Source: Gemmatimonadota bacterium
Lineage (GTDB): Bacteria > Gemmatimonadota > Gemmatimonadetes > Longimicrobiales > Gaopeijiaceae
Reading direction: 5' to 3'
Length of the DNA: 64,000 nucleotides
Assembly (NCBI GenBank): GCA_026706635.1
Contig: JAPOYJ010000075.1
Span: forward strand, 62,001-126,000
The first letter of the stretch is position 1. Each line of letters begins with the position of its first letter. Below, one piece after another: positions 1,811-56,950 of this stretch. A program made the position numbers and the translations under genes. The notes beneath the pieces are model-generated. The model was given only the letters and a program-made list of their open reading frames with translations, was not told the DNA's origin and did no database searches.

Positions 1811-1909
1811 CTCCCGCGGCGGCGAGTAGCGCCGCTTCCCAGCTGGACCGCTTTCCTCGACTGCCTACAGTGTAATGTGTGCTTTACAATATGTAATCCA
1901 TGGTTTACA
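1811..1909 (-). repeat. Intergenic repeat copy with twin TGTAA-N8-TTACA tip
   Basis: Copy of the dispersed repeat described in the findings, in the reversed orientation. 1811-1870 aligns with the core of the 40581-40695 copy (CTCCC.CGGC, then GCTGGAC.GCTT and CTCG.CTG in the same order). 1871-1888 and 1892-1909 are two 18-bp TGTAA-N8-TTACA palindromes separated by 3 bp. The outer GTGGACAAA box is not recognisable here. Confidence 0.7.
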
Positions 1910-6222: not shown

Positions 6223-6342
6223 TGTAAACTATAGATTACACATTGTAAATCACAGTTTACAGTATGGACAGGCGGGCTACGCGGTCCAGCGGGGACGCAG
6301 TGCCCCTCCCGCCGCCATAGGGTTTGTCCACGCACTCCTAGG
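6223..6342 (+). repeat. Complete intergenic repeat copy
   Basis: Begins with two TGTAA-N8-TTACA palindromes (6223-6240 and 6244-6261, 3 bp apart), continues with a GGACAGGCG.GC..CGCGG.CCAGCGG core and ends in a TTTGTCCACG...CTCCTAGG box. It aligns in the same order with 22544-22664 and, reversed, with 31535-31657 and 40581-40695. It fills the space between two converging genes. Confidence 0.75.
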
Positions 6343-12726: not shown

Positions 12727-14997
<2,271 letters not shown>

Positions 14998-17256: not shown

Positions 17257-17282
17257 TGACAGATTCGAGGGGTTATTTGTCA
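17257..17282. promoter_or_regulatory. Operator TGACAGAT-N10-ATTTGTCA upstream of the PfkB kinase
   Basis: Same half-site spacing as at 12728 and 21498, with one mismatch in the right half. It lies about 30 bp before the kinase start, in a locally AT-richer stretch that stands out from the GC-rich surroundings. Confidence 0.55.
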
Positions 17283-20283: not shown

Positions 20284-21500
20284 CGCTTCGGAGACGATCG
20301 GCCCAGGCACCGAGTCGCACCCGGTCGGCCAAAGGGATTCCCCTCGACTCCCTCTCGCCGCTCGACCGGCGGCTCCTGGAGCGGGCCGTGGCGCTCGGGC
20401 GCAGGGGATGGGGGCGGGTTCACCCGAACCCGATGGTCGGAGCGGTGGTGGCGCGCGACGGATCGGTGATTGCCGAGGGGCACCACGGAGAGCTGGGGGG
20501 GCCGCACGCCGAGGCACGGGCGCTGGCGGAGCTCGCCGGAGAGGTGGGTGCCACCCTCTACACGAGCCTCGAACCGTGCAGGCACCGGGGGAGGACGCCG
20601 CCCTGCACCGAGGCGATCGTCGGTGCCGGGGTGGCCAGAGTCGTCTACTGGGCAGCCGATCCGAACCCGGAGGCCGGGGGCGGCGGCGATTGGCTGCGCG
20701 GGCGGGGCGTGCGGGTGGAGGGCCCCTTCGGCGAGGAGGGCGACTGGGCAGCCGAGAACCCCCTCTTCCACCACCGGGTCGCGGCCGCGGCGGATCCGGA
20801 GCCCCGGCCGTATCTCGCGCTCAAGCTGGCGATGAGCGTAGACGGAAAGATCGCGCCCTCTGGGGGAAGGCGGGTGTGGCTCACCGGACCGGAGGCGCGC
20901 GCCGAGGTGCACCGGCTGCGCGCGGGCTTCGGCGCGATCCTGGTGGGCACGAGGACATGGCAGGCCGACAACCCGGCGCTGACGGCGAGGGGCGCGGTCG
21001 CGCCGCTGCGGCCACCGATCCCCGTCCTGCTCGACCGTCGAGGCGAGGCGACGCCGGAGCTCCGGGCTCTGGGCAACCGCGCGGCGCGGGCGATAGTGGT
21101 GACCGAGCCTTCGGCGCGCGCTCCGCTGGGGGAGCGCCTGCGGGGACGCGCCGAGGTGGTGGCGGTGCCCAACGGTCCAGGTGGCCTCGACCTGTCAGGG
21201 GTGCTCGGGTCGCTCGGTGAGCGGGGAGTCGAGAGCGTCCTCTCGGAAGGAGGAGGCGTGCTCGGAGCATCTCTCCTCGCCCACGGGCTCGTCGACCGCC
21301 TCTACCTCTTCGTCGCCCCGGCGGTGATCGGCCCCGGCGGGGTGGAGGCGTTCCCGTCGCCGACATCGCCGGGAGGCGACATGGTCGACTCCTTGGCGGG
21401 TTGGCGGCAGCGCCTCGAACCGGTCAGATTCGGCAGCGACACGCTGATAGTGCTCGACCGCGAGGTGTCCAGCATCCCCGCAACCGGAGCGAAATCGTGA
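20280..21500 (+). CDS. ribD: Riboflavin deaminase/reductase
   Basis: 406 residues from ATG 20280 (ATGA overlap). Bifunctional enzyme of riboflavin synthesis. The N-terminal deaminase has HPNPMVGAVV, the zinc motif HAEARAL and SLEPCRHRGRTPPC (HAE...PCxxxxxxPPC). The C-terminal reductase starts at about residue 180 with LKLAMSVDGKIAP and contains AILVGTRTWQADNP, EGGGVLGASLL and the closing LDREVS segment. Full length. First of the rib genes; the operator and promoter that precede ribE lie at its 3' end. Confidence 0.94.
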   Translation: MTLRRRSAQAPSRTRSAKGIPLDSLSPLDRRLLERAVALGRRGWGRVHPNPMVGAVVARDGSVIAEGHHGELGGPHAEARALAELAGEVGATLYTSLEPCRHRGRTPPCTEAIVGAGVARVVYWAADPNPEAGGGGDWLRGRGVRVEGPFGEEGDWAAENPLFHHRVAAAADPEPRPYLALKLAMSVDGKIAPSGGRRVWLTGPEARAEVHRLRAGFGAILVGTRTWQADNPALTARGAVAPLRPPIPVLLDRRGEATPELRALGNRAARAIVVTEPSARAPLGERLRGRAEVVAVPNGPGGLDLSGVLGSLGERGVESVLSEGGGVLGASLLAHGLVDRLYLFVAPAVIGPGGVEAFPSPTSPGGDMVDSLAGWRQRLEPVRFGSDTLIVLDREVSSIPATGAKS

Positions 21501-21523
21501 CAGATAGTGGCCATAATCTGTCA
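21498..21523. promoter_or_regulatory. Operator TGACAGAT-N10-ATCTGTCA upstream of ribE
   Basis: Both 8-bp halves match the pcrA site exactly. It overlaps the last codon of ribD and lies 14 bp upstream of the predicted -35 element at 21538, a position from which a bound protein could activate or interfere with the promoter. Confidence 0.6.
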
Positions 21524-21525: not shown

Positions 21526-21566
21526 TGTAATCTACAGTTTACAGTGTGTCAACTCACCATTACATA
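21526..21566 (+). promoter_or_regulatory. Palindrome pair acting as predicted ribE promoter
   Basis: TGTAA-N8-TTACA at 21526-21543 and a one-mismatch copy (TGTCA-N8-TTACA) at 21547-21564, 3 bp apart, as in the dispersed repeat but without its core. Read rightward they give TTTACA (21538-21543), 17 bp, TACATA (21561-21566), some 50 bp before ribE. Confidence 0.55.
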
Positions 21567-22223: not shown

Positions 22224-22236
22224 CACCGGGGAGGGA

Positions 22237-22455
22237 GCAGTCCGTGGATAATCTCGCGCGAGCACCGAGAGCGGCGAAGCGCTCCGCTGGCAAGGCGCGA
22301 CGAAGCGGTCCGTCGATCCGCCCGGGCGAGCACAGAGAGGGGCGAAGCGCCGTGCTGGCAAGGCGCTTCGCGGGGCGCATGGCAGAGCCATTCGCCCAAG
22401 AAGCAACGCAGAAGCGAAGCGATCCAGCGCGGATGCAGCGCCCCTCGAATGCCGC
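22237..22455 (-). repeat. Composite block of intergenic repeat modules
   Basis: Starts with a reversed box (TCCGTGGATAAT), then two successive reversed copies of a module containing GCTGGCAAGGCG (about 22245-22300 and 22318-22375); the forward form GCCTTGCCAGC recurs at 36769 and 56891. It ends with a forward core (CCAGCGCGGATGCAGCGCC, CTCGAATGCCG) seen also at 22544-22664. No coding frame. Together with the next copy it fills the 475-bp gap between ribE and ribB. Confidence 0.6.
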
Positions 22456-22543: not shown

Positions 22544-22664
22544 TGTAAACCGTGGATTACACATTGTAAGGCGTAGATTACAGTATGGACAGGCGAGCAA
22601 AGCGGCCCAGCGGAGATGCAGCGCCGCTCGAATGCCGTGGGAGGTTTGTCCACGGGCTGCTAGG
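22544..22664 (+). repeat. Complete intergenic repeat copy upstream of ribB
   Basis: Palindromes at 22544-22561 and 22565-22582 (3 bp apart), then GTATGGACAGGCGAGC, core CCAGCGGAGATGCAGCGCC, and box TTTGTCCACGGGCTGCTAGG. Rightward hexamers ATTACA (22556) and TACAGT (22579), 17 bp apart, could promote ribB 115 bp downstream; leftward the same tip gives CTTACA-17-TACAAT. Confidence 0.75.
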
Positions 22665-29537: not shown

Positions 29538-31450
29538 CCGGCGACCGAGGTGCGCCTGCGGGGGGGCTGATTCTTGGCACCGCTGGGCACATCGACCACG
29601 GAAAGACGGCGCTCGTGCGCGCACTCACCGGGGTGGACACCGACCGACTCGCCGAGGAGAAGCGCCGCGGAATCACTATCGAGCTGGGCTTCGCCCGCTA
29701 CGAGACGGGGCCCGGCACATCCTTCGGGATCGTCGATGTGCCCGGCCACGAGGGCTTCGTGCGCACGATGGTGGCTGGGGCGACCGGGATGGACATCGTC
29801 CTGCTCGTCGTGGCTGCCGACGAAGGCGTGATGCCGCAGACGCGCGAACACCTGGCGATTGTCCAGTTGCTGCAGGTCGATGCAGTGGTGGTCGCCCTGA
29901 CCAAGGCCGACCTGGTCGAGGCGGAGTGGATGGATCTGGTCCGCGAGGAGGTGGAGGAGCTGCTGGCCGCGACCCCCTACGCCGACGCTCCGATCGTGCC
30001 CACATCGGTTGCAAGCGGAGCCGGCATCGCCGAGCTGAACGAAGCGCTGGTGATTGCGGCCGCCGAGGCTGGAGGGCAGCCGGTGGACGATCTTGCGCGA
30101 CTCCCGATCGACCGGGTCTTCACCATCGAAGGGGCCGGCACGGTGGCGACCGGCACACTCTGGTCGGGGCGGATCGGGAGCGGAGCGACGGTGCGCATCC
30201 TCCCACTCGGCGCCGAAGCCCGCGTCCGCGCCGTCGAAGTGCACGGAGTGGGGGTCGGCGAGGCCTTGGCGGGCCAGCGGGCGGCTCTCGCGCTGACCGG
30301 GGCGGCGGTGCGGCGCGGCCTCGTCGGCCGGGGCGATGTGCTCGTCACCGACCGGAGCTGGTCGAGCTCCATGATGCTGACGGTGTCCATGCAGATGCAC
30401 CCTGAGAGCGGCGCGCCCGTGGAGCACGGGCAGCGCCTCCGGGTCCACCTCGGCACCGTCGAGGTCATGGCGCGCGTTGCGCTCCTGGAGGGCGACCGGA
30501 TAGTGCCTGGGGAGTCGGCGCTCGCCCAGCTTAGGCTGGAGGAGGCCGTCGTGGCCCGCGCGGGCGATCTCCTCGTCCTGCGCCACTACTCCCCTCCCCG
30601 CACGATCGCGGGCGCACAGGTCCTGGAGCCCGCCCCGCCCAAGCGCAAGCGGGTGTCGCCGTCGATAGGGGACGCCCTCGACGACCTCTCCCAGGGGGGC
30701 TTGCATGCGGTGGCGGGTGCGGTTGCGCTCGCCGGATGGGAGGGGGTGGATCGGGAGCTGCTCGCGGTGCGGGCGGGGTGGGCCGGGGCGCACGACCACG
30801 CGGTCGAGCTCGCAGCCGCCGAACACGGCATCCGCCTCCTCGACGGCGCACTCTTCGGTCGCCACGTCGCCAGCCGTGGAGAGAGACTAATCCTGGCCGC
30901 CACGGAGGCCCACCATCGCCGCCGCCCCCTGGAGGCGGGAGTGCCTCTATCGGTGCTGCGGGCCTCCCTTCCACCCCACGCGCACGCGTCGCTCGCCGAC
31001 TCTCTGGCCCGGGAGCTCGCGGAGAGGGGCGAGCTGGTGGTCGAGGGGACAACCGCCAGGATCCCGACCTTCGAGGCGGAACTCTCCTCTGCGCAGAGGG
31101 CCATGGCGCGGACAATCCTGGAGGCTCTGGGAGAGGTCGGCCTGGAGGGTCTCACTTCGGCCGAACTGGTGGAGCGCGGCCCGCGGGCTGAAGCGGCCGA
31201 CGTGCTCGCCTTTCTGGCCGAACGGAAGCGGGTCCGGCTGATCGCCGACACCTTCTGGGTAGCCGCCGAGGCGCTCGATCGCGCCACCAAGCGGATCGAG
31301 GACGAACTGGGGGGGCGCGAAGGACTGGGGCCAGCCGACTTCCGGAGGGTGCTGCCCCTATCGCGCAGACGTCTGATCCCGATCCTGGAGCACCTGGACG
31401 CGCTCGGCGTAACCGAGCGGGGCGAGGCGGGGCGGCGGGTTCGTCGCTGA
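29534..31450 (+). CDS. selB: Selenocysteine-specific elongation factor SelB
   Basis: 638 residues from GTG 29534 (GTGA overlap with recO). Delivers Sec-tRNA to UGA codons marked by a SECIS hairpin. The GTPase domain has [41 protein letters not shown] and TKADL; the GHIDHGKT and ITIELGFA forms are those of SelB rather than EF-Tu. Domains II and III follow ([20 protein letters not shown]). The C-terminal third contains winged-helix repeats, ending in [23 protein letters not shown], the SECIS-binding arm. Presence of SelB implies that this organism decodes some UGA codons as selenocysteine. selA, selC and selD are not in the window. Confidence 0.95.
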
Positions 31451-31534
31451 CAGAGGAGCCGACCGGCTGGATCTCCAGTCGTGCCACAGTGGCCGAATGG
31501 GTTGAATGGAGGGGGCGGGGTGGTCCTCGTCACA

Positions 31535-31657
31535 CCTAGCAGCCTCGTGGACAAAATCCCCCCGGCATTCGAATGGTGGTGCTCCTGCGCTGCCAGCTTT
31601 GCTTCACTAGTTCACAATTGTAAAGTATACATTACACTATGTAATGTATGTTATACA
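31535..31657 (-). repeat. Complete intergenic repeat copy, reversed, left of the integrase
   Basis: Begins with the box (CCTAGCAGCCTCGTGGACAAA), a diverged core with GGCATTCGAA and GCGCTGCCAGCTTTGCT, then palindromes at 31619-31636 and 31640-31657 (right arm ATACA). The tip points toward the integrase and gives ATTACA (31631), 17 bp, TACATT (31654). More AT-rich than other copies. Confidence 0.65.
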
Positions 31658-31786
31658 TTTTGTCTCTCCAAGGCTGCGATCAGCGTTGCTCTTCGGGCAA
31701 GTAGCGCTGCAAGTCGGACGCTCAGAATCCCATGATGTCCGGCATCGTCCATAGCAGTTCGTAACATCCTGTATTCACAACGCTTT

Positions 31787-31806
31787 AGGTAGGATTCCTC
31801 CTACCT
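31787..31806. promoter_or_regulatory. Perfect palindrome upstream of the integrase
   Basis: AGGTAGGA-TTCC-TCCTACCT: 8-bp arms around 4 bases, 55 bp before the integrase ATG. Not followed by a T tract, so an operator for integrase control or a recombinase arm site is more likely than a terminator. The rest of the 31658-31861 gap shows nothing recognisable. Confidence 0.4.
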
Positions 31807-31861
31807 TGTCCGTCCAGCGACGGCTCTTGCTATCCCGCACCATCCCGGTTACGATTAGGGG

Positions 31862-33073
31862 ATGGATAATGGTAACAGAACCCCCGTGAAACGCCCGCCG
31901 GGCAAGCCCCGGGGCCGTCATCCACACAAGCGGCTCTCCGCCCCCTTCGTGCGCTCCGCTCCGCCCGGTCGCCACTGCGACGGGAACGGACTCTACCTCT
32001 ACGTCCAGAAGACCGGAACCCGCAGCTGGATTCAACGTCTCGTCATCCGAGGACGCAAGCGCGAGCTCGGACTCGGGAGCGTCGAACTGGTCTCGCTGGC
32101 CGAGGCCCGCGAGCAGGCGCTCGCCAACCGGAAGCTCGCCCGTTCGGGCGGCGACCCCTTGGCCGAGAAGCGGCGGCTGGTCGGCATCCCCACCTTCGCC
32201 GAAGCCTCGAAGCGGGTGGTCGAGCAGAAGCGGGCCGGGTGGCGGAGCCCGGCCTACGCCAAGGAATGGTTCCGAAACTTGGAGATCCACGCTTTCCCGC
32301 GCATCAGGGACGTGGCTGTCTCGGAGGTCACGAGCGGCGACGTGCTGGAGATCCTCACTCCCATCTGGCACGCCAAGGGTCCCACGGCCCGGTTCGTCCA
32401 CATGCGCATCCGGGCGGTCCTGGAATGGGCCATCGCCATGGAATGGAGAACGGACAACCCCTGCGACCGGATTCTTCACCTGCTGGGGCCGCAGCACGAT
32501 GTCGTCACCCACCACAAGGCCCTGCCTCACGGCGAGGTCGCCGCGGCCGTCGCGAAGGTGCGGGCGGCGGATCCGGGGAGGGTGGACACGTTGGCCTTCG
32601 AGTTCCTTGTCCTGACGGCGGCGCGGGGCGCCGAGGTCCGTGGCGCGGTGTGGAGCGAGATGGATGAACGCTCGGGTGTTTGGACGATCCCCGCAACCCG
32701 GATGAAGACCGGGCGCGAGCAGCGGGTGCCGCTGTGCGGGCGGGCGCTGGAGATTCTGGAGGCGGCCCGAAAGCTGGAGGGCGGGAAGAATCCGGTCGTG
32801 TTCGTGAACGAGCGCGGGAGGACGCTGGACGGGAAGCGGCTGAACCGGCTCTTGAGGAAGCACGGGATCGCGGCGGTGCCGCACGGGTTCCGGTCGTCGT
32901 TCCGGGACTGGGCGGCGGAGAAGACGGATCATCCCCGCGAGGTGGTAGAGGCGGCGCTGGCGCACGTGGTCAAGAGCAAGGTCGAGGCCGCGTACCGGCG
33001 CACGGACCTGTTCGAGCGGAGACGCCGCTTGATGGCCGACTGGGAAGCGTATCTCGCAAGCCGGAGGTCCTGA
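31862..33073 (+). CDS. Tyrosine-type site-specific integrase (P4-like)
   Basis: 403 residues from ATG 31862. The N-terminus has the DUF4102-like arm-binding domain (DGNGLYLYVQKTGTRSWIQRLVIRGRKRELGLGS-type strands), then a core-binding domain and the catalytic domain: Arg in TAARGAEVRGAVW, HGFRSSFRDW (HxxR), ALAHVV replacing the second His box, and the nucleophile Tyr in VEAAYRRTDLFERRR. All catalytic positions are present. Prophage- or island-type integrases of this class usually insert at tRNA genes, but none is visible next to it; selB is the upstream neighbour. Confidence 0.92.
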   Translation: MDNGNRTPVKRPPGKPRGRHPHKRLSAPFVRSAPPGRHCDGNGLYLYVQKTGTRSWIQRLVIRGRKRELGLGSVELVSLAEAREQALANRKLARSGGDPLAEKRRLVGIPTFAEASKRVVEQKRAGWRSPAYAKEWFRNLEIHAFPRIRDVAVSEVTSGDVLEILTPIWHAKGPTARFVHMRIRAVLEWAIAMEWRTDNPCDRILHLLGPQHDVVTHHKALPHGEVAAAVAKVRAADPGRVDTLAFEFLVLTAARGAEVRGAVWSEMDERSGVWTIPATRMKTGREQRVPLCGRALEILEAARKLEGGKNPVVFVNERGRTLDGKRLNRLLRKHGIAAVPHGFRSSFRDWAAEKTDHPREVVEAALAHVVKSKVEAAYRRTDLFERRRRLMADWEAYLASRRS

Positions 33074-33469
33074 CGCCCCCGCGACGGGCTCAGGGGCCGT
33101 TTCGGGGCTTTCCAGAGGCTTTTCGGGTATCCTACGGGCCACAGGATCGGCGGAGAGCGACGATCTCGGGTCCGGGAGGGGTACGGGGGTAGGGGGTAAG
33201 GCGGGGCTCGATAGAGCGCGCCGCCGTCGCCCTCGCCGTCCTTGAGACCGGCGACGACGAGGCGGTGGACCCTGCCCGCGATCATCCGGTCGAGACTGTT
33301 CCGGGCGATGCCCGGCGGGCGTTTCGCGGGTGCCCCGCGTGGCTGGCTTGGCCACGCTAAGGTGGACAAGCCAGCGTACCCTCCGTATTACACGGTGGGG
33401 CTGGCGGGGGGCTCTGCCCCCTCGACCCCGAGAAGCCCGTGTAGTCGCGCTTGAAGATCGCGGGCCACG
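33074..33469. other. 396-bp gap after the integrase
   Basis: No convincing gene. A minus-strand open frame here (start 33369) is low-complexity and runs antisense into the integrase end. A GGGGGCTCTGCCCCCTCGACC motif at about 33407-33428 can fold on itself (GGGGGC.../GCCCCC) and may act as terminator between the converging integrase and propeller genes. A box-like CTTGTCCACC is on the minus strand near 33363. Confidence 0.45.
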
Positions 33470-34696
33470 TCAATCCTTCGACGGCTCCGGACGGCGGGAG
33501 GTCCGCCGCAGCCGCTTCACCACCACCGTCTCCACGTCCATTTCGTCCCGTTCGATGAACGCGGCCAAGCCCTCTGGACCGAAGGCGTCCGGCAGCGCGA
33601 TCGAGCCAGCCGGATAGGTTCCCAAGTAGCGCCCGTCGGAGGTCAGAACGTCGATGGGGCCAGCGTTGCCGCCGGGCTCCTCCCCGCGCCGTTGCACCCA
33701 GATCTCGCCGTCCCAAGTCGCGGTCAAGGCTTGGATGACCGAAAGCTCGGGGTAGAAGGAGACATCGACGCGTCCCAAGCTCCTCCATCCCGCCCGCTCG
33801 GCTCGAACCCGATCCGCAGCCCGCTGCTCCTGCCAAGCCCTCCGTATCGCCGGGGTCACCGGTTGTGGGCTGATGGGTCGGATAACGACACGCTCTACGC
33901 GCGCGCCGCCATCGGATGACGCGAGCTTGAGTCTGTAGGTGGTTGAGTCGCTGAACACGATGGTGCCATCCGGCAGCACCCCGTACAGGAGTTCGGGCTC
34001 GAAGATGGCGGGCATGGATACGGAACCGAATCCCATGCTCCTTGCCTCGTCCAGTACCGAACGTTCCGGCAACCAGCCCTCGGCGACGCTTTCCGCGTGC
34101 GCTACAGCGCCCGCGAGGGACAATCTCAAAATCGGGCGAGAGGTCCATCCGTGCATGCCTGTCGCGGAAGCCTCGGTCAGGAGGTTCCCACCACGAGGAT
34201 CGCCTTGGGTGTTCGTGTTCATCTGAATGTCTTCGGGCATGCGCACGCTACGGACGTAGCTGCCAGCCGGGTCGAAGATCTGATAGGCCCTGCTCCGGAC
34301 GTTACCCACAACCGTCGTTCCGTCCCGCATGACGACGTAGGCATTGGGCCAGTTGAACTCGCCCGGCCCTTCCCCCATCCGACCGAACTCCCGCTGGAAT
34401 CCTCCTGCCGCGTCGAAGACGAGGACGCGCAGGCTCGTCGGGAGTGCAAGCTGATCCGGCAAGCCCGCCATCAGGATTCCATCGAAGACGTAGAGGTTGC
34501 CGCCCTCGTCGAACGCGAGCTTGACGATGGTCGTGAACTGCTCCCAAGGCTCACCCATGGTCGCCCCGACCCGGAACACTTCCTCGAAGCCGGCTTCCAA
34601 GTAGCTGTCTTCGACCGGAAGCTGGATCACCTCTTGGCCGCCGAGCGGCACGGCCAAGCCCGCAATCGCGGCCAAGGCGATCATCGTTCGTCTCAT
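33470..34696 (-). CDS. Secreted six-bladed beta-propeller protein (propeller 2)
   Basis: 408 residues from ATG 34696. Signal peptide [20 protein letters not shown], mature start [12 protein letters not shown]. Blades include [43 protein letters not shown] (the shared GEGPGE signature near residue 112), [13 protein letters not shown] and IWVQRRG strands. The C-terminus is unusually basic ([16 protein letters not shown]) compared with the other propellers. Lies alone within the accessory block between integrase and DUF262 gene, without a Cys-rich peptide or redox gene beside it. Role unknown; probably periplasmic or surface-exposed binding protein. Confidence 0.78.
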
Positions 34697-34891
34697 GGGT
34701 GAGCTTCCACAGCGCAGGGGGCAGTCCCGAAGTCAGGTCACCGCCCAAACGTAAGGCGTGCGCCTACCCCACGTCACCAAGCATTTCGCCAGTGGGTTGC
34801 CGTGGAACGAGCGGGTGGGGGCGGAATGCCGTTGGTGCAGCCGATGGCCGGTCGTCGCTTGGGCGGGCGGCGGATCGGTGCCCGGGGGTCA

Positions 34892-34968
34892 AAGGGGGCG
34901 GAGCGCCCCTTGCCAGACCGCCACGTTCAACGTGGCGTCGGCTGGCTGACGCCCCTTTTTCGGGGCGT
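34892..34968. other. Cluster of three hairpins between divergent genes
   Basis: Within 77 bp: an imperfect AAGGGG...CCCCTT hairpin (34892-34911), a perfect CGCCACGTT-c-AACGTGGCG (34919-34937) and a perfect ACGCCCC-TTTTTC-GGGGCGT (34949-34968). They lie in the 495-bp space between propeller 2 (minus) and the DUF262 gene (plus). They could be terminators, an attachment site remnant or a structured RNA; the sequence does not decide. The rest of 34697-35191 holds nothing I recognise. Confidence 0.5.
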
Positions 34969-35191
34969 GAGGCAGCCCCCCGGCTCCGAGAATCTCGGGC
35001 CGCGCGAAGTCGCTTGGGCGCGGAAAGCGCGGGTTCTACGAGCAGCGAGTCGTACGCGTGCCAAGCCCACATCTCCCGCCGAGTGCGGCAGGAGAGTAGC
35101 TTAAGTGGGTGCTCCGAAACCCTGCGGTTGACCGCCCCCGTGCTGCCGGTGCGTGGGTTGCTGGCCTCTTCTTCCCCAAGTGAACCTCCAG

Positions 35192-36562
35192 ATGATTTCG
35201 ACTACGAAGCAACGAACCGTCAAGCAGATTCTCGACCTACAGAAGAACAAGCTGCTGGAGGTGGACCCCGAGTACCAGCGTGGCCCCGTATGGACGCGCC
35301 TCCAGAAGCAGTATTTCGTGGACTCGATTCTCCGGGGATACCACATCCCGCTGATCTACATGCACTTCAAGAAGGGCAGCGAAGTGGGTGGACTCCAAGT
35401 CGGAGATCGGCTGTACATCATCGATGGACAGCAGCGGGTTCGGGCGCTCTACGAGTTCTCCGAGGGGGCCTTTCCCCTCCTTGATCCCAAGGACCACCCG
35501 GGGCGTTTTCCGAAGTCGCTGATCGAGGCCCCGTGCGAGTGGGCCGCGCGAGACATGCACCAACTGGATGATGGGACACGCGACCGCTTCTTCCAGACGC
35601 CCCTCTCCGTGGTCTACATCGAAACGGAAGACCAGAACGAGGTCCGCGACCTCTTCATTCGGTTGCAGGGCGGGAAGCCCCTGACGCCCCAAGAGCAGAG
35701 GGACGCTTGGCCGGGAGCCTTCGGCGCGTTCGTCTGCCGGGTGGCTGGCAAGAGGGGCGTGGCCAAGTATCCAGGACACGACTTCTTTCGAAAGCTGTTG
35801 CGGGCCAACGTTCGGGCCAACACTCCCAAGGGGCGTCAGCTTGCCGCCCAGATGATCATGTTGTACGCCAAGTACCGAGAGGACCGAGGGTTCTGCGACA
35901 TCAAGCGCAACTCCGTCGATTCGTACTACGTCAAGCACATGGACTTCGACAGCGGCGCTCCGCTCGCCACCGAGTTCCTAGCGGCGCTCACTGAGGTCAC
36001 CGAGTTGCTGGGCGATGGGAAACGACCGCTGTTGGTCGGGCATCAGGCGATCCATCTGGTGCTGCTGGCCGGCACGTTGCTTGATCCTCGATACGTCCCC
36101 GAGTCGTGGCGGACGACGTTTGCTGACGCGTTCGATCACTTCACTGAGCGCCTCGCCCGAGCCCGAGCCCGTGAACGTGCCGGGCAAGGGGAAATGGAGC
36201 CCGAGGACTTCGAGTACATGCGTCAGTACGGCTACAAGGCGAGAACCAGTACCGACGCAGCCCATACCATTCGCGACCGCCATCTCTTTTTCGCCGCCAA
36301 GATGCTGGAGCACATGCAGCCGAAGGTCCGGGATGACCGGCGAGTCTTGGGTCCCTTGGAGCGCGAGATAGTCTACCGGAGGGATGGGAAGCAGTGCCGG
36401 GTCTGTAGCAAGGAAGTCGTTTGGAACGAGGCGGAGTTCCATCATGTCGATCCGTACACGGACGGAGGTCCGACTACGATCACCAACGCCGCGCTCGTGC
36501 ACCGCGCGTGCCACCCGCGCAGCGAAGCGGAAGTGAAGCGCTTCGCTGCGCTACAAACGTGA
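35192..36562 (+). CDS. DUF262 (GmrS-like) protein with C-terminal HNH nuclease motif
   Basis: 456 residues from ATG 35192 (GTG 35180 also possible). The N-terminal 200 residues are a DUF262 domain: EYQRGPVWTRLQKQYFVDSIL, a YHIPLIYMH strand and the ParB-like DGQQRVRAL motif near residue 80, later FIRLQGGKPLTPQEQRDA. DUF262 is the nucleotide-hydrolysing half of GmrSD and SspE defence proteins. The last 60 residues carry an HNH module: CRVCSKEVVW, FHHVDPYTDGG and NAALVHRACH. The combination in one chain suggests a restriction-type nuclease. GC content is visibly lower than in the core genes. It is the last gene before the right-hand repeat of the accessory block. Confidence 0.8.
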   Translation: MISTTKQRTVKQILDLQKNKLLEVDPEYQRGPVWTRLQKQYFVDSILRGYHIPLIYMHFKKGSEVGGLQVGDRLYIIDGQQRVRALYEFSEGAFPLLDPKDHPGRFPKSLIEAPCEWAARDMHQLDDGTRDRFFQTPLSVVYIETEDQNEVRDLFIRLQGGKPLTPQEQRDAWPGAFGAFVCRVAGKRGVAKYPGHDFFRKLLRANVRANTPKGRQLAAQMIMLYAKYREDRGFCDIKRNSVDSYYVKHMDFDSGAPLATEFLAALTEVTELLGDGKRPLLVGHQAIHLVLLAGTLLDPRYVPESWRTTFADAFDHFTERLARARARERAGQGEMEPEDFEYMRQYGYKARTSTDAAHTIRDRHLFFAAKMLEHMQPKVRDDRRVLGPLEREIVYRRDGKQCRVCSKEVVWNEAEFHHVDPYTDGGPTTITNAALVHRACHPRSEAEVKRFAALQT

Positions 36563-36757
36563 CCGACCAAGGAGGCGGTGGCTGTCTGCGGACCGCTGGC
36601 CCGACTCCCGACAGTGTCCACCCACGTCCGGCGAAGTCGCACGGAATCCCGTGTAGGAATGGGGATGTAAAAAGGGGATGAACGCTACGTCAACTTACAT
36701 AAATCATTGCAATATATACAATTTACGAAATATTCGCAGAATAGCGCTGCTATTCCC
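36563..36757. other. AT-rich spacer at the right edge of the accessory block
   Basis: No gene. Positions about 36690-36735 are strongly AT-rich (TTACATAAATCATTGCAATA and neighbours), with half-site-like TTACA, TGCAA and TTTACG words that resemble a decayed palindrome tip of the dispersed repeat but do not keep its spacing. A box-like TGTCCACCCACG occurs near 36616. Confidence 0.4.
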
Positions 36758-36831
36758 CCGTCGTCGCGCCTTGCCAGCCCGGCGCCTCGCTGCTCCCGGT
36801 GCGCGCACGGCTTTATCCACGGACCGCTAGG
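36758..36831 (+). repeat. Intergenic repeat module plus box
   Basis: GTCGTCGCGCCTTGCCAGCC, then CGGTGCGCGCACGG and the box TTTATCCACGGACCGCTAGG. The same order occurs at 56881-56950 and, reversed, at 22237-22300. It lies 79 bp before the AI-2E permease gene and faces the opposite way from the copy at 31535-31657. Confidence 0.6.
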
Positions 36832-36909
36832 CTGCTAGAATCAAGGGCCGATACCGACCCGACGGGACGCTCCAGGCGCTACTAGACACTGGAGCCTAAC
36901 CCCAAGCCG

Positions 36910-38019
36910 ATGGCTCTCGACCAACTCGATCAGCGTCCCGGCCTGCGCTTCCTCTTCACTGTCGCGGTCGGCTTCGTCCTCGTGCAGGGCCTGCGCTTCG
37001 CCGAGCCGATCCTCCTGCCGATCGCGCTTGCAGCCTTCCTCGCGGTCATCTGCCTTCCCGCAGTCCTCTGGCTGCAAAGGAGGGGCATCCCCTTCGTGGT
37101 CGCCATCCCGGCGACGGTCCTGGCCGTGGCCGGTGTCCTCGGGCTCCTGATTCTGGTCGGCATCCAGCAGCTGGACGAGCTGCAGTCCCGCATCGTAGCG
37201 CAGGGGTTGGCGATCCGCCCCGAGCTGGACGCCTGGCTGACCGGGATCGAGACCCGCTTCTCGCTCCTGGAGGAGGGCGACATACGCGGCACGGTCCTGG
37301 GTCTGATCGACATTCCGACGCTGGCATCGCTCGCTACCGACGCCACAACCTGGGCGCTGTCCTTCGTCTCCGGGGTCTTCATCGTGCTCTTGCTGCTGGG
37401 GTTCACCCTGGGCGAAGCGGCGGTACTCCCGAGGAAGCTGGAGCGTGTGGCGGGCAATGTGGTCGCCTCCAACGAGAGGATGACGGGCATCGTCGCCGAG
37501 GTTCAGGGGTACCTCGTGATCAAGACGGTCGCCAGCCTTGCCACCGGGGTGCTGCTCGGGCTCTGGACATGGTCGATGGGGGTCGAGCTCCCGATCCTGC
37601 TGGGGCTGATCGCCTTCGTGCTCAACTATGTCCCCACCATCGGGTCGATCATGGCGGCGATTCCGGCGATCGTGCTGGCGCTTGTGGAGGTCGACGTGGC
37701 CACGGGGGACTTCCTGGGGGTGAATGCGCAGCGGACGATCGTGGTGGGACTCGGCTACCTGGCCGTCAACGTCTGCATCGGGAATTGGCTGGAGCCAATG
37801 GTGATGGGTCGGCGCCTGGGGCTCTCGACTCTGGTCGTGGTGCTCTCGCTGCTATTCTGGGGTTGGCTCTGGGGGCCGATCGGGGCCGTCCTCTCGGTGC
37901 CCCTGACAATGGTGGCGAAGATCATGCTGGAGCACACCAGCGATCTGAAGTGGCTGGCCACGATGCTCGGCAAGGCGCCCGGGCCGGACGATGCCGCTGG
38001 CACGGAGGGGAAGGCGTGA
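36910..38019 (+). CDS. AI-2E transporter family (PerM/TqsA-like) permease
   Basis: 369 residues from ATG 36910. About eight transmembrane helices arranged as in the family: two N-terminal (FLFTVAVGFVLVQGL, LPIALAAFLAVICLPAV), a large extracytoplasmic region, then LGLIAFVLNYVPTIGSIMAAIPAIVLAL and the PMVMGRRLGLSTLVVVLSLLFWGWLWGPIGAVLSVPL signature near the C-terminus. Members export varied small molecules or ions; the name AI-2E does not prove autoinducer transport. The stop overlaps the next gene start. Confidence 0.88.
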   Translation: MALDQLDQRPGLRFLFTVAVGFVLVQGLRFAEPILLPIALAAFLAVICLPAVLWLQRRGIPFVVAIPATVLAVAGVLGLLILVGIQQLDELQSRIVAQGLAIRPELDAWLTGIETRFSLLEEGDIRGTVLGLIDIPTLASLATDATTWALSFVSGVFIVLLLLGFTLGEAAVLPRKLERVAGNVVASNERMTGIVAEVQGYLVIKTVASLATGVLLGLWTWSMGVELPILLGLIAFVLNYVPTIGSIMAAIPAIVLALVEVDVATGDFLGVNAQRTIVVGLGYLAVNVCIGNWLEPMVMGRRLGLSTLVVVLSLLFWGWLWGPIGAVLSVPLTMVAKIMLEHTSDLKWLATMLGKAPGPDDAAGTEGKA

Positions 38020-38516
38020 TGCCCGCCGACTTCGAGAGTCTCCCCGACAGCTCACGGCTCTGGGTGTACGCCTCCCGCAGGGAGTTGGCCCCGGACGAGG
38101 CCGCGGCGCTGCTCGCCGCGATCGATGCATTCCTCGCCGAATGGAGCGCGCACGGCTCCCGCCTGAAGGCGGCCAGGTCGCTGCGCCACAACCGCTTCCT
38201 CCTGATCGCGGCCGACCCCGGGGCCGTGCCGCCTTCGGGTTGCTCCCTCGATGCGCTCGCGGGGGAGCTACGCAGGCTAGGGGGACGGCTGGGGACCGGC
38301 CTCTTAGGCCATGACGGCGTCTGGTACCGCGATGGTGGTGGCGCGGTGCGACACGCCACGCGGGGCGACTTCCGTGCCCAGGCCCATGCCGGCGCGGTGA
38401 CGCCCGCCACCGTCGTCTTCGACAACTCGATCACGACGCTTGCGGAGCTGAGGGCGGGCGAGTGGGAGGGACCAGCCTGCGACCGTTGGCACGCGATCTT
38501 CTTCGATGCTACATAA
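38019..38516 (+). CDS. Conserved cytoplasmic protein of unknown function
   Basis: 165 residues from ATG 38019, whose A is the last base of the permease stop (TGATG). Begins LPDSSRLWVYASRRELAPDEAAALLAAIDAFLAEWSAHG, then RHNRFLLIAADP and a SGCSLDAL segment. This pattern (PDSSR.W.Y, WxxHG, RFL.I..D....SGCSID) is a conserved family also found in Bacteroidetes, sometimes mislabelled as an ABC transporter ATPase; it has no Walker motif. A Cys in SGCS is conserved in memory of the family and might be functional, which is inference only. Confidence 0.65.
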   Translation: MPADFESLPDSSRLWVYASRRELAPDEAAALLAAIDAFLAEWSAHGSRLKAARSLRHNRFLLIAADPGAVPPSGCSLDALAGELRRLGGRLGTGLLGHDGVWYRDGGGAVRHATRGDFRAQAHAGAVTPATVVFDNSITTLAELRAGEWEGPACDRWHAIFFDAT

Positions 38517-38522
38517 ACGCAA

Positions 38523-38585
38523 GTGAGGCCGACGGTTAGCTCCGTCGACCTCACATTGAGTCGGATCGGCCATGGTGCCGATCCG
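38523..38585. terminator. Two hairpins between converging genes
   Basis: GTGAGG.CGACGG / CCGTCG.CCTCAC (38523-38554, one mismatch pair) and CGGATCGGC / GCCGATCCG (38562-38585 region). They separate the 38019 gene from cspA on the other strand and can serve as a bidirectional terminator. No T tract. Confidence 0.55.
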
Positions 38586-38614
38586 GGGTCAGTTAGCGCT
38601 GGCTGTTCGCGTTG

Positions 38615-38833
38615 TCAGGACACCTCGGCAACGCGGGTCACGTTCTCTGCTGCGGGCCCCTTGGGGCCATTCACCATGTCGAACTCGACCTGGTCTCCCT
38701 CGGCCAAGCTCCTGAAGCCATCCCCCTCGATGGCCGAATAGTGCACGAAACAGTCTCGCTCCCCGGCCGCCGGGCTGATGAAACCGAATCCCTTCGCGTC
38801 GTTGAACCACTTGACGGTTCCCGTCGTCCGCAT
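38615..38833 (-). CDS. cspA: Cold-shock protein
   Basis: 72 residues from ATG 38833, chosen because GAGGAG lies 7 bases upstream. Single cold-shock domain: [15 protein letters not shown] (RNP1), DCFVHYSAI (RNP2), the QVEFD strand and [10 protein letters not shown]. Binds single-stranded RNA or DNA and melts RNA structure. The region upstream, toward the divergent tolC gene, is more AT-rich and includes a TACTATACTT word, a possible -10 region. Confidence 0.93.
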
Positions 38834-39016
38834 CCGTCCACTCCTCATGGTAAGCTGTACTATACTTCGGCGCTGACGATCGCACTCGCGATCGCACGAG
38901 CCGCACGGCGGAAGCAGGCGCACACACTCCAGGGCAGCCTTCCCGCCAACTCAAGATCCTCTGACCCTACCCGGTTGAGAGGCGTAGGTCAAGTGCCTGC
39001 AACGCCAAGGCAAGGA

Positions 39017-40576
39017 ATGCGACTGAAGACGAAGCAAGCCGAATCGCCCGAGAGCGCCACCCACCCTGCACGCCGGGGCAGCGGCTCCCGCAGGATGCGA
39101 TGGCGGTTGCTGGTTTCCGTGGCCCTTGCGGCTGGAGCTCCGGTAGCGGCGACGGCGCAGGACGCCCGTCGGCCCGCCGATGCCGGGGCTAGGCTAGTGG
39201 ACGCCCCCGCTCTGCTCAGCGAGGTGCTGCGGGCGGCTCTGGAGGGCAACCCGGATATCGTAGACGCCGCTCTGGAGGTCGAAGTCGCGCGGGAGCAGGT
39301 CTCCGAGGCGCGGAGCGGTCTCTACCCGACGATCGATCTCTCGTCCTCCTTCACCCGCAATGTCAAGCCTCCGATCAGCTTCCTGCCAGCGGAGTTCTTC
39401 GGCGGAGAGCCAGGGGAGTACATCCAGGTACGGTTCGGTGCCGACAACAACTGGCAGCTCTCGATCGACGCCGAGCAGCCGCTCCTGGACATGAGGGCCG
39501 TCATCGGGCTGGGGGCTGCGGACGGGCTGGTGCAGATCAGCCGCGAGGCAGCGCGCGGGCGCACTCAGGATGCCGTGACTCGGGTGCGCATCGCCTTCTA
39601 CGATCTGCTCCTGGCGCGCGAGGAGGTTCGCCTGATCGAGCGCTCGCTCGCAAGGGTGCAGCAGGTGCTCTCCGACACCAGGGCGATGCAGGGGGCCGGG
39701 CTGGCCTCCGAGTACGACGTGCTTCGCCTGGAGGTGGAGGTGGCGAGCCTGGAGCCGGACCTCAGGCGGGCACGGAACCGTCACCGGTCGGCGAGGCGGA
39801 CGCTGGCGGTTGACCTGGGCCTCGAGCCCGGCGCAGAGATCGAAGCGGCCGGGTCGCTCGCGGAGATCGACCTTGACGATGTGGAGGCCAACTCGGCTGG
39901 AAATCGGGACATCCTGGCGCTCCAGGGAGTGGCTGCGACGGATGAGGCGGGCACTCGGAGTCTCATGGAGCGAGGTGTGCGCGGGCGCGCCGACGTCAGG
40001 CAGCTCGCGGTTTCGGAGCGCCTCCGCTTGGCGGAGCTTCGGCTCGAACAGGTCGAGTATCTGCCGAAGGTCTACGCATTCGGCAGCTACGGCCTCTCGG
40101 CGCAGCACGATGGCGCGCCGAAGTTCTTCGGGAGCTCGCAGGAGCGGACCGAGTCGCGTCTGGTTGGGCTTCGGGTCACCATTCCGCTCTTCTCCGGCCT
40201 GAGCCGCGACGCCAGGATCGACCAGCGCCGAGCCACGCTGCGACGCATTCGGAGTCAGTCCCAGGCGGCGGTGGATCGTGCGCAGGCGGAGCTGCTGGAT
40301 CTGCTCGGCCAAGTCCAGGAGGCGCGCTCGCGCGCCTCGGCCCAGCACCTCGCCGTCGCCCAGGCTAGCCGCGGCTTCGAGATCGCGGCCGCACGCTACC
40401 GCGAGGGCACGGGCAGCCGATTCGAGCAGACCGACGCCGAGGTCGCCCTTCGGAGGAGCGAGTTCAACTACGCGCGGGCCGTATACGACTATCTTTCGGC
40501 GAGAGCCCGTCTCGACCTGGCCAGCGGACGGGTGCCTTTTGTCGATGTGGGTGCCGCCGGCGTTCCGCTCGGCTGA
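39017..40576 (+). CDS. TolC-family outer-membrane efflux protein
   Basis: 519 residues from ATG 39017 (AAGGCAAGGA precedes it); ATG 39095 is an alternative nearer the signal peptide (RLLVSVALAAGAPVAATAQ). Two OEP repeats with long helices: EVLRAALEGNPDIVDAALEVEVAREQVSEARSGLYPTIDL-type in the first half, and ERLRLAELRLEQVEYLPKVYAFGSYGLS, TIPLFSGLSRDARIDQ, YREGTGSRFEQTDAEVALRRSEFNYARAVYDYLSARARLDLA in the second. Forms the outer-membrane channel for the MFP and RND proteins encoded next. Confidence 0.9.
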   Translation: MRLKTKQAESPESATHPARRGSGSRRMRWRLLVSVALAAGAPVAATAQDARRPADAGARLVDAPALLSEVLRAALEGNPDIVDAALEVEVAREQVSEARSGLYPTIDLSSSFTRNVKPPISFLPAEFFGGEPGEYIQVRFGADNNWQLSIDAEQPLLDMRAVIGLGAADGLVQISREAARGRTQDAVTRVRIAFYDLLLAREEVRLIERSLARVQQVLSDTRAMQGAGLASEYDVLRLEVEVASLEPDLRRARNRHRSARRTLAVDLGLEPGAEIEAAGSLAEIDLDDVEANSAGNRDILALQGVAATDEAGTRSLMERGVRGRADVRQLAVSERLRLAELRLEQVEYLPKVYAFGSYGLSAQHDGAPKFFGSSQERTESRLVGLRVTIPLFSGLSRDARIDQRRATLRRIRSQSQAAVDRAQAELLDLLGQVQEARSRASAQHLAVAQASRGFEIAAARYREGTGSRFEQTDAEVALRRSEFNYARAVYDYLSARARLDLASGRVPFVDVGAAGVPLG

Positions 40577-40580
40577 CGTT

Positions 40581-40695
40581 GGTAACCTGTGAACAAATCT
40601 CCCACGGCAGGGGCGGCGCTGCATCCCCGCTGGACAGCTTCGCTCGCCTGTCAAACTGTAAGGTACGCTTTACAATGTGTAATCCGTGGTTTACA
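40581..40695 (-). repeat. Complete intergenic repeat copy upstream of the efflux adaptor
   Basis: Reversed: degenerate box (ACCTGTGAACAAATCTCCC), core GGCGCTGCATCCCCGCTGGA, GCTTCGCTCGCCTGTC, then palindromes 40657-40674 and 40678-40695, 3 bp apart. It separates tolC from the adaptor gene. Confidence 0.75.
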
Positions 40696-40697
40696 AT
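40669..40697 (+). promoter_or_regulatory. Predicted promoter for the MFP-RND genes
   Basis: TTTACA (40669-40674), 17 bp, TACAAT (40692-40697), both formed by the repeat palindromes and identical to the hexamers upstream of aroA-cmk. About 90 bp before the adaptor start. Confidence 0.55.
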
Positions 40698-40784
40698 GCC
40701 TACGAAACTAGTGGCGGGAGCGATCCCAAATCGAATCTGCACCTGGTCTGGAGTCGTTCGGTGAGCGAAGGGGAGCATCTGGGC

Positions 40785-41876
40785 ATGGCTGACCACCGGT
40801 TCGTATTCGGGACGCTGCTTGCGCTGGCACCGCTGGCCTGTGGCGGCGCCGAGGGAGAGGGGACGGAGACGGCGGAGGCGGCGGAGTTCCATCGCGTCGT
40901 CAACGTCGAGGTCGAGACGGTCGCCCCCCGTCCGTACGCCGTTTCGGTGCGCGTGACCGGTATGGCGGCGGCGCTCAGGGACGTCGTGGTGGCGGCCGAC
41001 GAGACCGGCGTCGTGAGCGAGATCCTCGCGGAGCAGGGGAGCGAGGTGGAGCTGGGTGCCCCCATCCTGAAGCTCGACGACGAGATCCTCCGTGCGCAGC
41101 ACCGGGTGGCCAGCGCGCGTGCCGAGTACGACGAGGGTTACTGGGAGCGCACGAGGAGGCTCTACGAGGAGTCCGGGATCGGGTCGGAGGTGGCGTACCT
41201 GCAGGCCAAGCGCGCGGCCGAGGAGAGCGCGGGCAACCTGGCCGTCCTCGAGACCAGGCTCGCGCACGCGACGGTGCGGGTGCCCTTCGACGGCATTTTG
41301 GACAGCCGTCTCGTCGAAGTGGGGAGCTTCGTCGCACCCGGCACGCCGGTGGCCCGCGTGGTGCAGATCGACACTATCAAGGTCCTCGCGGGGGTTCCCG
41401 CCAGATTCGCCGCGCTCGTTGGGAGCGGTACCAAGGCCACGGCGCACTTCGGTGCCGACGAGATGTCCCTGAGCGGAACGGTCGCATACGCGGGCGCCAC
41501 GGTGGATCTTCGGACCCGGACGATGCCCATCGAGCTGACCTTCCCCAACCCGGGTCGCCGGATCAAGGCGGGAGGTGTCGCCGACGTGGTCCTCACGGTC
41601 GACGAGGTCCCCGACGCGCTGGTCCTTCCCCGCATGGCGCTCATCTCGATGGAGGAGGGGCAGGCGGTCTTCGCGGTCTCCGACTCCGGCGAGCACGCTG
41701 TCGCCGAGGCAAGGCAGGTGCGAGTCGCCAGCTGGCAGGGCAACGAGGTCGTAGTCGAATCGGGGGTCGCTCCCGGAGACCGCGTGGTGGTGGTCGGCCA
41801 GCGGGGGCTTACCCACGGCGACTGGGTCAGGGTCGTGACCCCGCCCGCGGCGTCGGCGGGGACCGAGGGGAAGTGA
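40785..41876 (+). CDS. RND efflux periplasmic adaptor (membrane fusion) lipoprotein
   Basis: 363 residues from ATG 40785 with GGGGAG nine bases upstream. Lipobox LAPLAC near residue 18. Barrel-sandwich, hairpin and beta-barrel domains as in AcrA-type proteins: VVVAADETGVVSEILAEQGSEVELGAPILKLDD, a coiled-coil hairpin, ATVRVPFDGILDSRLVEVGSFVAPGTPVARVVQID, and a membrane-proximal VLPRMALISMEEGQAVFAV segment. Links the RND pump to TolC. Overlaps the pump gene by four bases (GTGA). Confidence 0.92.
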   Translation: MADHRFVFGTLLALAPLACGGAEGEGTETAEAAEFHRVVNVEVETVAPRPYAVSVRVTGMAAALRDVVVAADETGVVSEILAEQGSEVELGAPILKLDDEILRAQHRVASARAEYDEGYWERTRRLYEESGIGSEVAYLQAKRAAEESAGNLAVLETRLAHATVRVPFDGILDSRLVEVGSFVAPGTPVARVVQIDTIKVLAGVPARFAALVGSGTKATAHFGADEMSLSGTVAYAGATVDLRTRTMPIELTFPNPGRRIKAGGVADVVLTVDEVPDALVLPRMALISMEEGQAVFAVSDSGEHAVAEARQVRVASWQGNEVVVESGVAPGDRVVVVGQRGLTHGDWVRVVTPPAASAGTEGK

Positions 41877-44800
41877 GCGAACCCTCCGCAGGGAAGGCGG
41901 GGAGGAGAGTCCCCGCGGCTCGCGACGAGAGGTCCTTCAAGGAGTTCCCGCTCACGACGCTGGCGATCCGGAATCGCACCTCGGTGCTGGTCCTCTTCGC
42001 CTTCGTTACGATCGGCGGCCTGGTCTCCTACAACGCCATCCCCAAGGAATCGTTCCCGGAGATCGAGATCCCCTCGATCGCTGTCAACACCTTCTATCCG
42101 GGGGTCTCGCCGACCGATGTGGAGAGTCTGGTCACCCGGAAGATCGAGGAGGAGCTGAACACGATCAGCGGCCTCAAGGAGCTGACCTCCACCTCGATCG
42201 AGGGCTACTCGTCGGTGGTCGCCGAGTTCGAGACCTCCACCAATATGGACGAGGCGCTTCAGAAGGTCAGGGAGAAGGTCGATCTTGCCCGGCCCGAGCT
42301 CCCCCCCGACGCCGACGATCCCGCGATCTACGAGTTCAATGTGGACGACTTCCCGATGATGCAGGTCAACCTCGCGGGGGCGTACGGGCTGGTCCGGCTC
42401 AAGGAGGTCGGCGAGGATCTCCAGGATCGTCTCGAGGCGATCCCGGCGGTGCTCAGGGTGGACCTGCGCGGCGGCCTGGAGCGCGAGGTCCGGGTCGATG
42501 TCGATCTCTCGCGGCTGCAGTACTACAACGTATCCTTCGACGACGTGCTGACAGCGATCCGCGAGGAGAATGTGAACATCCCCGGCGGGTCGATAGATGT
42601 CGGCGGGGTGAAGTACCTGGTGCGAGTCGACGGCGAGTTCGACGATCCCTCCCTGGTGGGCGACCTCGTCGTGACGACCGTCGACGGGCGTCCGATCTAT
42701 GTGAGCGACCTCGCCGAGGTGGAGTTCGGCTTCGCGGAGCGGGAGAGCTACGCACGGCTCTCCGATGAGCCGGTCATCACCCTTGACGTGGTGAAGCGCT
42801 CGGGACGCAACATCATCGAGACAGCGGATGCCGTCCGGGCCGAGATCGACGCTATGCGTCCGTTCCTGCCGCCCTCCACCATCGTCTCGATCACCTCCGA
42901 CATGTCGGCCGACATCGGCGACATGGTCAGCAGTCTGCAGAACAACATCATCTCCGGGCTGATCCTGATCGTGGGCGTCCTCCTCTTCGTCCTGGGGCTG
43001 CGCACCTCGATCTTCGTCGCGATCTCGATACCGACCTCCATGTTCCTGACCTTCGTCCTCCTGCGGGTACTGGGGGTGTCGATGAACATGGTGGTGCTCT
43101 TCTCGCTGATCCTCGCGCTCGGGATGCTGGTCGACAACGCGATCGTGATCGTCGAGAACATCTACCGCTTCGTCGAGGAGGGGTGGGACCGGAGGACCGC
43201 GGCTCGCAAGGCGACCGGCGAGGTGGCTGTGCCGGTTGTCGCGGCCACCGCAACCACCCTTGCCGCCTTTACTCCGCTCCTCTTCTGGCCGGGCCTGGCG
43301 GGTCAGTTCATGCGGTACCTGCCCCTCACCCTCATCGTCACCCTCTCGAGCTCGCTCTTCGTGGCGCTCGTGATCGTGCCCACCCTCTGCTCCTTCTTCC
43401 TGGATCCGGCAGGGGCGCGGCCGCGGCGCCAGGGGCGGCGAAGGCGCGGCCCGATCCTGGGTATCCTCGGTGTGGGACTCCTGCTCGTGGGGCTTGCCAA
43501 CCCGCTTACCGCGGTGCTCCTGGCGGTCGTGGGCGGCGGCCTCTGGCTTCTCCATGTCAGGGTGCTGGAGAGGGTGGGCGCGGCCTTCATGGCACACACC
43601 TACGTTCGCCTGATTTCGTGGTACGAAGGGCGTCTGAGCTGGGCGCTCGACCACCGCCCGCTTGTGCTCTTCGGCTCGGTGGCCGCCTTCGTCGGCACGA
43701 TCGTCGTCTACGGGCTATTCGCGAGGCCGGTGGAGTACTTCCCCGAGGACGTTCCTCCCCGCACGCTGGTCGTCAGCGTGGACGCGCCCGTGGGCACCTC
43801 CGCAGATGTGACGGACGGATACGCGCGCCGACTGAAGGCCGATCTGGCCGGCATCGAGGGACTTTCCGACGCCGAGACCGTGGTGACGACGGTGGGTGCC
43901 GGCGGCGGCGGGGGTGGATTCATGGCCAGCGGCCCCTCCGGACCCGAGGCGGGGCGCATCACCGTCGACATGGTCGAACCCCAGGACCGGAGCCACGACG
44001 TATTCGCCACTCTGGCCGAGATGCAGCGGCGGGTCGGTGCCGAGCTGGCCGGTGCGGAGGTGCGGGTCGACAAGGTGGAGGAGGGGCCGGGGTCGGGGCC
44101 TCCGGTCAACATCGAGATCGGCGGCGAGGACCCGCAGCTCCTGGCGGCCTTCGCGGAGGAGGCGATCAATCTGATCGAAGGTGCGCCCGTCTACTCGCGG
44201 CTAGTCGGTCTGGAGAGCGACATGGACGACGCCCGCGCCGAGCTGCAAGTCGAGGTGGACCGGGAGCGGGCGAGCCTCTACGGACTCTCGACCAACGATG
44301 TCGGCTTTGCGGTCCGGGGAGCGATCAACGGGCTGGAGGCCGCAAAGTACCGTACCGGCAACGACGAGTTCGACATCGTGGTCCGACTCCGCGAGGAGGA
44401 CCGGAGGGAGCTGACGGCCCTCGACGAGCTGACCGCCCTCGCCGAGGGCACCCAGGTGCCGCTCGTCTCGGTCGCCGAGTGGAGAGTAGGCAAGGGGTAC
44501 GGCTCGATCCGGCGCAAGGACATGGACCGGGTGGCCACCGTGAGCGCCGAGGTCACCTCGGGGCAGAACCCCAACGCGGTCCTAGGCGAGGTCAGAGGGG
44601 TGCTGGCCGACTTTGCCGCCTCGCTGCCCCCAGGCTACACCCTCGCCTTCACCGGCGAGCAGGAGGAGCAGCAGGAGGCCCAGGCCTTCCTGATGGGCGC
44701 CTTCCTGATCGCGGTCGGGCTGATCGCCTTCATCCTGGTGTCGCAGTTCAACTCGGTGGTGAAGCCGCTCATCATCCTGTCGTCGGTGGTGATGTCGACG

Positions 44801-56837: not shown

Positions 56838-56950
56838 GGAGATTCGAGGCGCGCTGCATCCGCGCTGGACCGCTGTGCGCTTCGTCGCGCCTTGCCAGCC
56901 CGGTGCTTCGCGCCTCTCGGTGCTCGTCAGGGTTCATCCACGGACTCCTA
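56838..56950 (+). repeat. Intergenic repeat: core, module and box
   Basis: ATTCGAGGCGCGCTGCATCC and GCGCTGGACCGCT (core in reversed sense), then TTCGTCGCGCCTTGCCAGCC, TCTCGGTGCTCG and box TTCATCCACGGACTCCTA. Shows that the core and the box-module can be joined in either sense. No palindrome tip. Confidence 0.6.

Follow-up and report, generated by a model that had tools for sequence, protein, structure and literature searches.

Tandem palindromic operators are familiar from the XRE-family phage regulators Cro and CI, whose HTH_3 dimers bind short palindromes in tandem and cooperatively, overlapping the repressor's own promoter. The paired ARG boxes bound by ArgR are 18-bp palindromes separated by a 3-bp spacer, giving a period of 21 bp, and ModE, the molybdenum-responsive regulator of modABC, belongs to a DNA-binding type different from XRE. 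Precedents also exist for repeats bearing promoters or IHF sites: the Correia repeat enclosed elements of Neisseria are dispersed intergenic repeats that contain promoters and an IHF site (PMC2649163; PMC10969869).

Here we analyse a 39-base double palindrome, referred to as the tip, that recurs in the window (the whole 64-kb stretch of DNA analysed, 68% G+C), in the genome to which it belongs and in related genomes. On the sequence evidence below, the tip is probably (about three chances in four) the tandem operator of a one-component regulator combining XRE-HTH and PBP_like domains, an operator that spread through the genus and underwent amplification in the window's own species.

The double palindrome and its carrying repeat

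Six tandem pairs of TGTAA-N8-TTACA boxes with a 3-bp spacer occur in the window (Table 1). They account for all 12 boxes found there at ≤1 mismatch, compared with 0.02 single boxes expected from shuffled sequence. The window forms part of contig 5 of a 2.8-Mb genome (G000), in which exact pairs number 140, rising to 187 when 1 mismatch is allowed and to 256 when up to 3 are; a control search of it with the reversed pattern returned none. In a 451-kb sample of unselected stretches of this genome, 84 of 85 perfect boxes had a partner box (≤2 mismatches) within 80 bp, nearly always at an offset of exactly 21 bp (83 such offsets were counted). Among 54 tips sampled, 52 were intergenic. The six window pairs and the 83 offsets confirm the architecture put forward in the earlier note, namely two 18-bp palindromes with a fixed 3-bp spacer and a 21-bp period. 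The promoter-like hexamers are likewise where that note had placed them: TTTACA or ATTACA is followed at 17 bp by TACAAT (pairs starting at 1871 and 40657), TACATA (21526), TACAGT (22544) or TACATT (31619). Tips supply 4 of 5 promoter-like hits in window positions 30000-42000 (0.8 expected).

Table 1. Tips and associated elements in the 64-kb window.
Feature	Position	Strand	Context
Tip, amplified type	1871..1909	+	60 bp before 688-aa ORF named aroA-cmk in the earlier note
Tip, amplified type	6223..6261	-	Convergent gap, therefore no start codon downstream
Flank module of carrying repeat	6262..6314	-	Beside 6223 tip
Tip, native type, 1 mismatch	21526..21564	+	Flanks not amplified repeat; 53 bp before lumazine-binding (riboflavin synthase-type) gene
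Tip, amplified type	22544..22582	-	116 bp before ribB (DHBP_synthase)
Flank module of carrying repeat	22583..22629	-	Beside 22544 tip
Tip, older subfamily, 1 mismatch	31619..31657	+	291 bp before tyrosine integrase gene (31949-33073)
Left flank module of carrying intergenic repeat	40605..40656	+	Adjoins 40657 tip
Tandem operator (tip; predicted), amplified type	40657..40695	+	Between outer-membrane efflux gene (39197-40576) and MFP gene (40761-41876)
Promoter-like TTTACA-N17-TACAAT inside tip	40669..40697	+	10 of 12 matches

Most copies in the window's genome lie in one repeat, in which a left module, GCGGCGCTGCATCCCCGCTGGACCGCTTCGCTCGCCTGTCCATAC, is followed by the tip and then by a right module, ATGCCCGTACCCGTGGCTTCGCTCTGCGTTGC. 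GCTTCGCTC flanks the tip module on both sides in this carrying repeat, and GCAGYCCGTGGA has 53 matches in the 451 kb. Because many repeats without a tip join CGCTTCGCTC directly to TGCGTTGCTCC, the tip is, as judged from these junctions, a module inserted into a mosaic intergenic repeat. CTAGCAGYCCGTGGA-like ends are found in many repeats, and the tip itself is internal to the repeat. The N8 centres are near-fixed in this genome (consensus TGTAATSTAYGCTTTACAATATGTAATCCATGGTTTACA) because most copies stem from one amplified repeat. Relative to tandem genes, amplified tips showed no orientation bias (14 in the same and 10 in the opposite orientation in the 451-kb sample). The mosaic repeat with CTAGCAGYCCGTGGA-like inverted ends was also observed at 22231-22366, 36739-36829 and 56842-56950 of the window and at many sampled loci.

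The carrying repeat, with its CTAGCAGYCCGTGGA-like ends and many tip-less copies, is what might be expected of a selfish REP/MITE-like repeat whose arms are needed by a mobilising enzyme and not by a regulator. A 68-bp tip-containing segment present in the relative G002 and absent from the relative G015 at one locus, without a clean duplication, would also fit such an element, as would the 3'-biased loci described below, which resemble neutral insertions. Nevertheless, we consider this explanation improbable: the native sites of relatives mostly have no common flank, sites are linked to, and missing together with, a regulator gene, and arms have been kept at orthologous fixed loci after the species split. 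Separately, a 1.26-kb length difference beside one tip, considered as a possible cassette, turned out to reflect an ordinary beta-propeller gene that G015 has and G002 lacks.

Another dispersed palindrome, TGACAGATW-N8-WATCTGTCA, is 26 bp long and has the same 8-bp centre length as the tip. Copies occur at 12728-12753, 17257-17282 and 21498-21523 of the window and at loci L096, L106, L110 and L114, with a handful in the 451 kb; some lie within a few bases of a tip, as the 21498 copy does beside the 21526 tip. It is possibly another regulator's operator.

A candidate regulator and its home site

A 384-aa protein encoded beside a site in the sister genus carries HTH_3/HTH_31 and PBP_like domains; the HTH of the regulator matches CylR2 and 434 Cro chains. 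The gene order is regulator-modA-modB-modC, the last three forming the modABC genes for molybdate uptake; in the window's genome the regulator gene lies outside the window (G000:C53:3484-4269). Homologues were present in every tip-bearing member of the genus sampled, including one in which the gene is split over two contigs (G005). A tandem pair (≤3 mismatches) is found 32-110 bp upstream of the regulator in the window's genome and in all 21 other genus genomes from which the gene was fetched. Our assignment of the tip as a putative operator rests on this linkage, with a pair preceding the regulator in all 22 gene-bearing genomes of the genus, and on G009, which has neither. G009 is the sole sampled genus member without tips and without the regulator (0 pairs, 0 boxes and no regulator match), a single natural case. 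It retains modABC, including modA, between the same neighbours, with regulator and operator missing there. A modA tree placed neither G009 nor the window's genome, and the sites of G009 were either lost or never present.

Sites are widespread in the genus and rare beyond it. Each of 21 of the 22 other genus species sampled has 5-60 pairs at ≤1 mismatch, with variable N8, and no pairs were found at this threshold in the one sampled genome from another genus of the family or in 16 genomes of the order. Across 249 genomes of the phylum, exact pairs were confined to this genus apart from one occurrence in a sister genus. The regulator is present in each of the six sister-genus species examined, alongside 1-3 pairs, a state of regulator plus one or a few sites that was probably the starting point of the expansion in the genus. 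Two of the six have one of their pairs at the regulator. An exact pair lies 98-105 bp before the regulator in two sister-genus records, one of which matches genome G182, and G125 has a 1-mismatch pair 94 bp upstream. Three sister-genus species (G081, G238 and G106), by comparison, have a home site that has decayed or changed its spacing, which counts against the operator assignment. Three further genera encode homologues that are 37-40% identical, with 5-7-mismatch double palindromes 11-29 bp upstream; 15 of 400 random 189-bp windows reach ≤7 mismatches, 12 of these being real sites with ≤2. Most of the named relatives that share the pattern are Gemmatimonadetes MAGs, and isolate names suggest that many of these come from sponges.

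On the complete chromosome of G021, sites extend from 11 kb to 4.15 Mb, and a search for clustering revealed no obvious domain. At one locus of G021 (L227:2080-2616), a 249-bp tandem repeat contains three identical tips. The exact tandem pair was also seen in eleven viral contigs (loci L085-L095), with scattered matches.

At the home site, the pair overlaps promoter-like hexamers in two registers, (T/C)TGACA-N16-TGTAAT/TATAAT and TTTACA-N17-TACAnT. Given this overlap, autorepression of the operon by the regulator is the most likely reading. In the window's genome the regulator gene is an open 261-aa frame with an intact HTH and a PBP_like match over profile positions 3-78 of 193 alone. It is divergent and lacks much of the sensor domain, yet the number of sites is the highest of all, a combination that also weighs against the operator reading. 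The link between the shortened sensor and the largest expansion is suggestive and comes from one MAG. In this genome a perfect tip also directly abuts the 3' end of modC (L199:1112, contig 53), leaving the mod operon with tips on either side.

The paired ARG boxes bound by ArgR in E. coli have the same spacing geometry as the tip (18-bp palindromes set 3 bp apart), which made ArgR a candidate binder. The ArgR domain was not found in the window's genome, which has the most sites, unlike in all 39 other sampled relatives, and it is present in genera without sites. We therefore rejected ArgR and give this possibility almost no weight.

Constraint and placement of dispersed copies

We compared 17 orthologous tips between G002 and G015, including loci located by DNA search and not by pattern. 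Changes affected 5 of 340 arm positions (1.5%), 52 of 272 N8 positions (19%) and 7 of 51 spacer positions, with divergence elsewhere between the two genomes of 11.2% at fourfold-degenerate sites and 6.8% in other intergenic DNA. Because arms change at 1.5%, versus 19% for N8 and 11% for fourfold-degenerate sites, these substitution patterns indicate that the arms are kept by selection. Paralogous copies in the window's genome gave similar values: copies located by one flank alone were 2.8% off consensus in the arms, 15.8% in the flank and 19.4% in N8, and those anchored on the opposite flank 1.3%, 16.7% and 18.2%, respectively. N8 is at least unconstrained, and appears to change faster than neutral, in bursts at a few sites. 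That it outpaces fourfold-degenerate sites is a point against the operator reading, as simple binding does not account for it. At three pairs of loci (L116/L136, L122/L157 and L125/L142), up to 10 of 16 positions of the N8 centres differ between G002 and G015, with flanks 92-95% identical.

The N8 of relatives varies, though with a mild leaning towards the palindrome WSYNNRSW. A search for N8 covariation found none, and complementarity at the three outer pairs equalled or fell below that of shuffles. Recognition of double-stranded DNA by a protein would give such a pattern of soft palindromes without covariation. A hairpin or RNA-level element, such as a terminator or RNase site, might be suspected from the closeness of the palindromes to gene 3' ends; given the lack of compensatory pairing in N8, the weak stems of just 5 bp with 8-nt loops and the absence of an Rfam match, it is very improbable. 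The earlier note had proposed checking whether N8 is free while arms and period are conserved: the arms and 21-bp period are conserved and N8 varies in relatives, but N8 is near-fixed in the window's genome. Its proposal of a two-dimer operator on a dispersed repeat gains support from the fixed period and the selected arms.

In relatives, pairs lie mostly at gene 3' ends or between convergent genes and not at promoters. Tip-bearing gaps included 25 convergent and 11 divergent gaps, compared with 17 convergent and 47 divergent tip-less gaps at the same loci (Fisher P = 5e-5; gene calls came from our own codon-model script and are approximate). The tips of G021 have a median distance of 25.5 bp to the nearest stop codon and 86 bp to the nearest start. 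In the window's genome, placement is proportional to the availability of gaps (8 convergent versus 11 divergent tips, against 25 versus 32 available gaps; P = 1), and arms are equally intact in convergent gaps and elsewhere (451-kb sample).

These distributions bear on the suggestion of the earlier note that the tip is a portable promoter, kept and spread for giving neighbouring genes a sigma-70-type promoter. In its favour, TTTACA-N17-TACAAT matches the consensus at 10 of 12 positions and home-site arms often shift towards TTGACA and TATAAT, as in G006 and G010, in which they deviate to TTGTCA and TATAAT. Amplified copies are also nearer the consensus than native ones (mean 2.79 versus 3.49 mismatches), but they descend from one ancestor and hence are not independent. 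Fixed arms with random filling already give 3.6-4.1 mismatches, versus 6.0 for random DNA; as the arms alone bring a sequence about two mismatches nearer the consensus, the resemblance in dispersed copies is largely a by-product. The enrichment of relatives' tips in convergent gaps and at gene ends, and their depletion in divergent ones, fit a promoter poorly as the reason for keeping sites, and neither the proportional placement nor the intact convergent-gap arms in the window's genome favours it. Thus, the overlap of operator and promoter-like hexamers at the home site stands, whereas retention of dispersed copies as promoters seems unlikely. Among genes beside dispersed sites, neither a molybdenum theme nor a recurrent family stood out. 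The missing molybdenum theme is a further point against the operator reading, and flanking genes without a common function disfavour a classical regulon.

A probable dispersed operator and its precedents

Under the operator reading, two regulator dimers would bind the predicted operator on the same face of the DNA, 21 bp apart. At the home site, the regulator heading modABC would cover its own promoter, leading to autorepression. Within the genus the operator would then have reached tens of sites, chiefly at the ends of genes; in the window's species an intergenic repeat would have captured it, and amplification brought it to about 256 pairs. At gene ends, protein bound to the dispersed copies would most likely serve as roadblock, insulator or loop anchor; these copies may also buffer free regulator by titration, with occasional promoter effects. 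As a tentative and rather doubtful extension, a local metabolic regulator could have become a chromosome-wide binder, with tetramers at tens to hundreds of gene ends blocking read-through or forming chromosome loops; in the window's species, loss of much of the sensor domain would have accompanied this and made a nucleoid-like protein of a molybdate switch.

If the operator reading is correct, a pathway operator at more than 250 selected sites, with an identifiable regulator, would make the turning of a local repressor into a genome-wide binder observable, with a naturally regulator-less species (G009) at hand for comparison. It would also give this uncultured, sponge-associated lineage a testable operator and regulator candidate for its uptake of molybdate. 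Our literature search found no paper on this XRE-HTH plus PBP_like regulator type or on operator amplification.

Compared by organisation and not by sequence, the tip resembles Correia elements in being part of a dispersed intergenic repeat with promoter-like hexamers and a protein-binding site that can affect neighbours. It differs in being, most likely, the operator of one pathway regulator, with arm-specific selection, a location mainly at gene ends and no known nucleoid protein. ARG boxes share the geometry of the tip but have a different half-site, and ArgR is absent from the window's genome. As with ModE, the regulator is encoded at a molybdate transport operon, but here it is of the XRE plus PBP_like type. 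Finally, whereas phage Cro and CI operators comprise a few sites, tips number from tens to 256 per genome.
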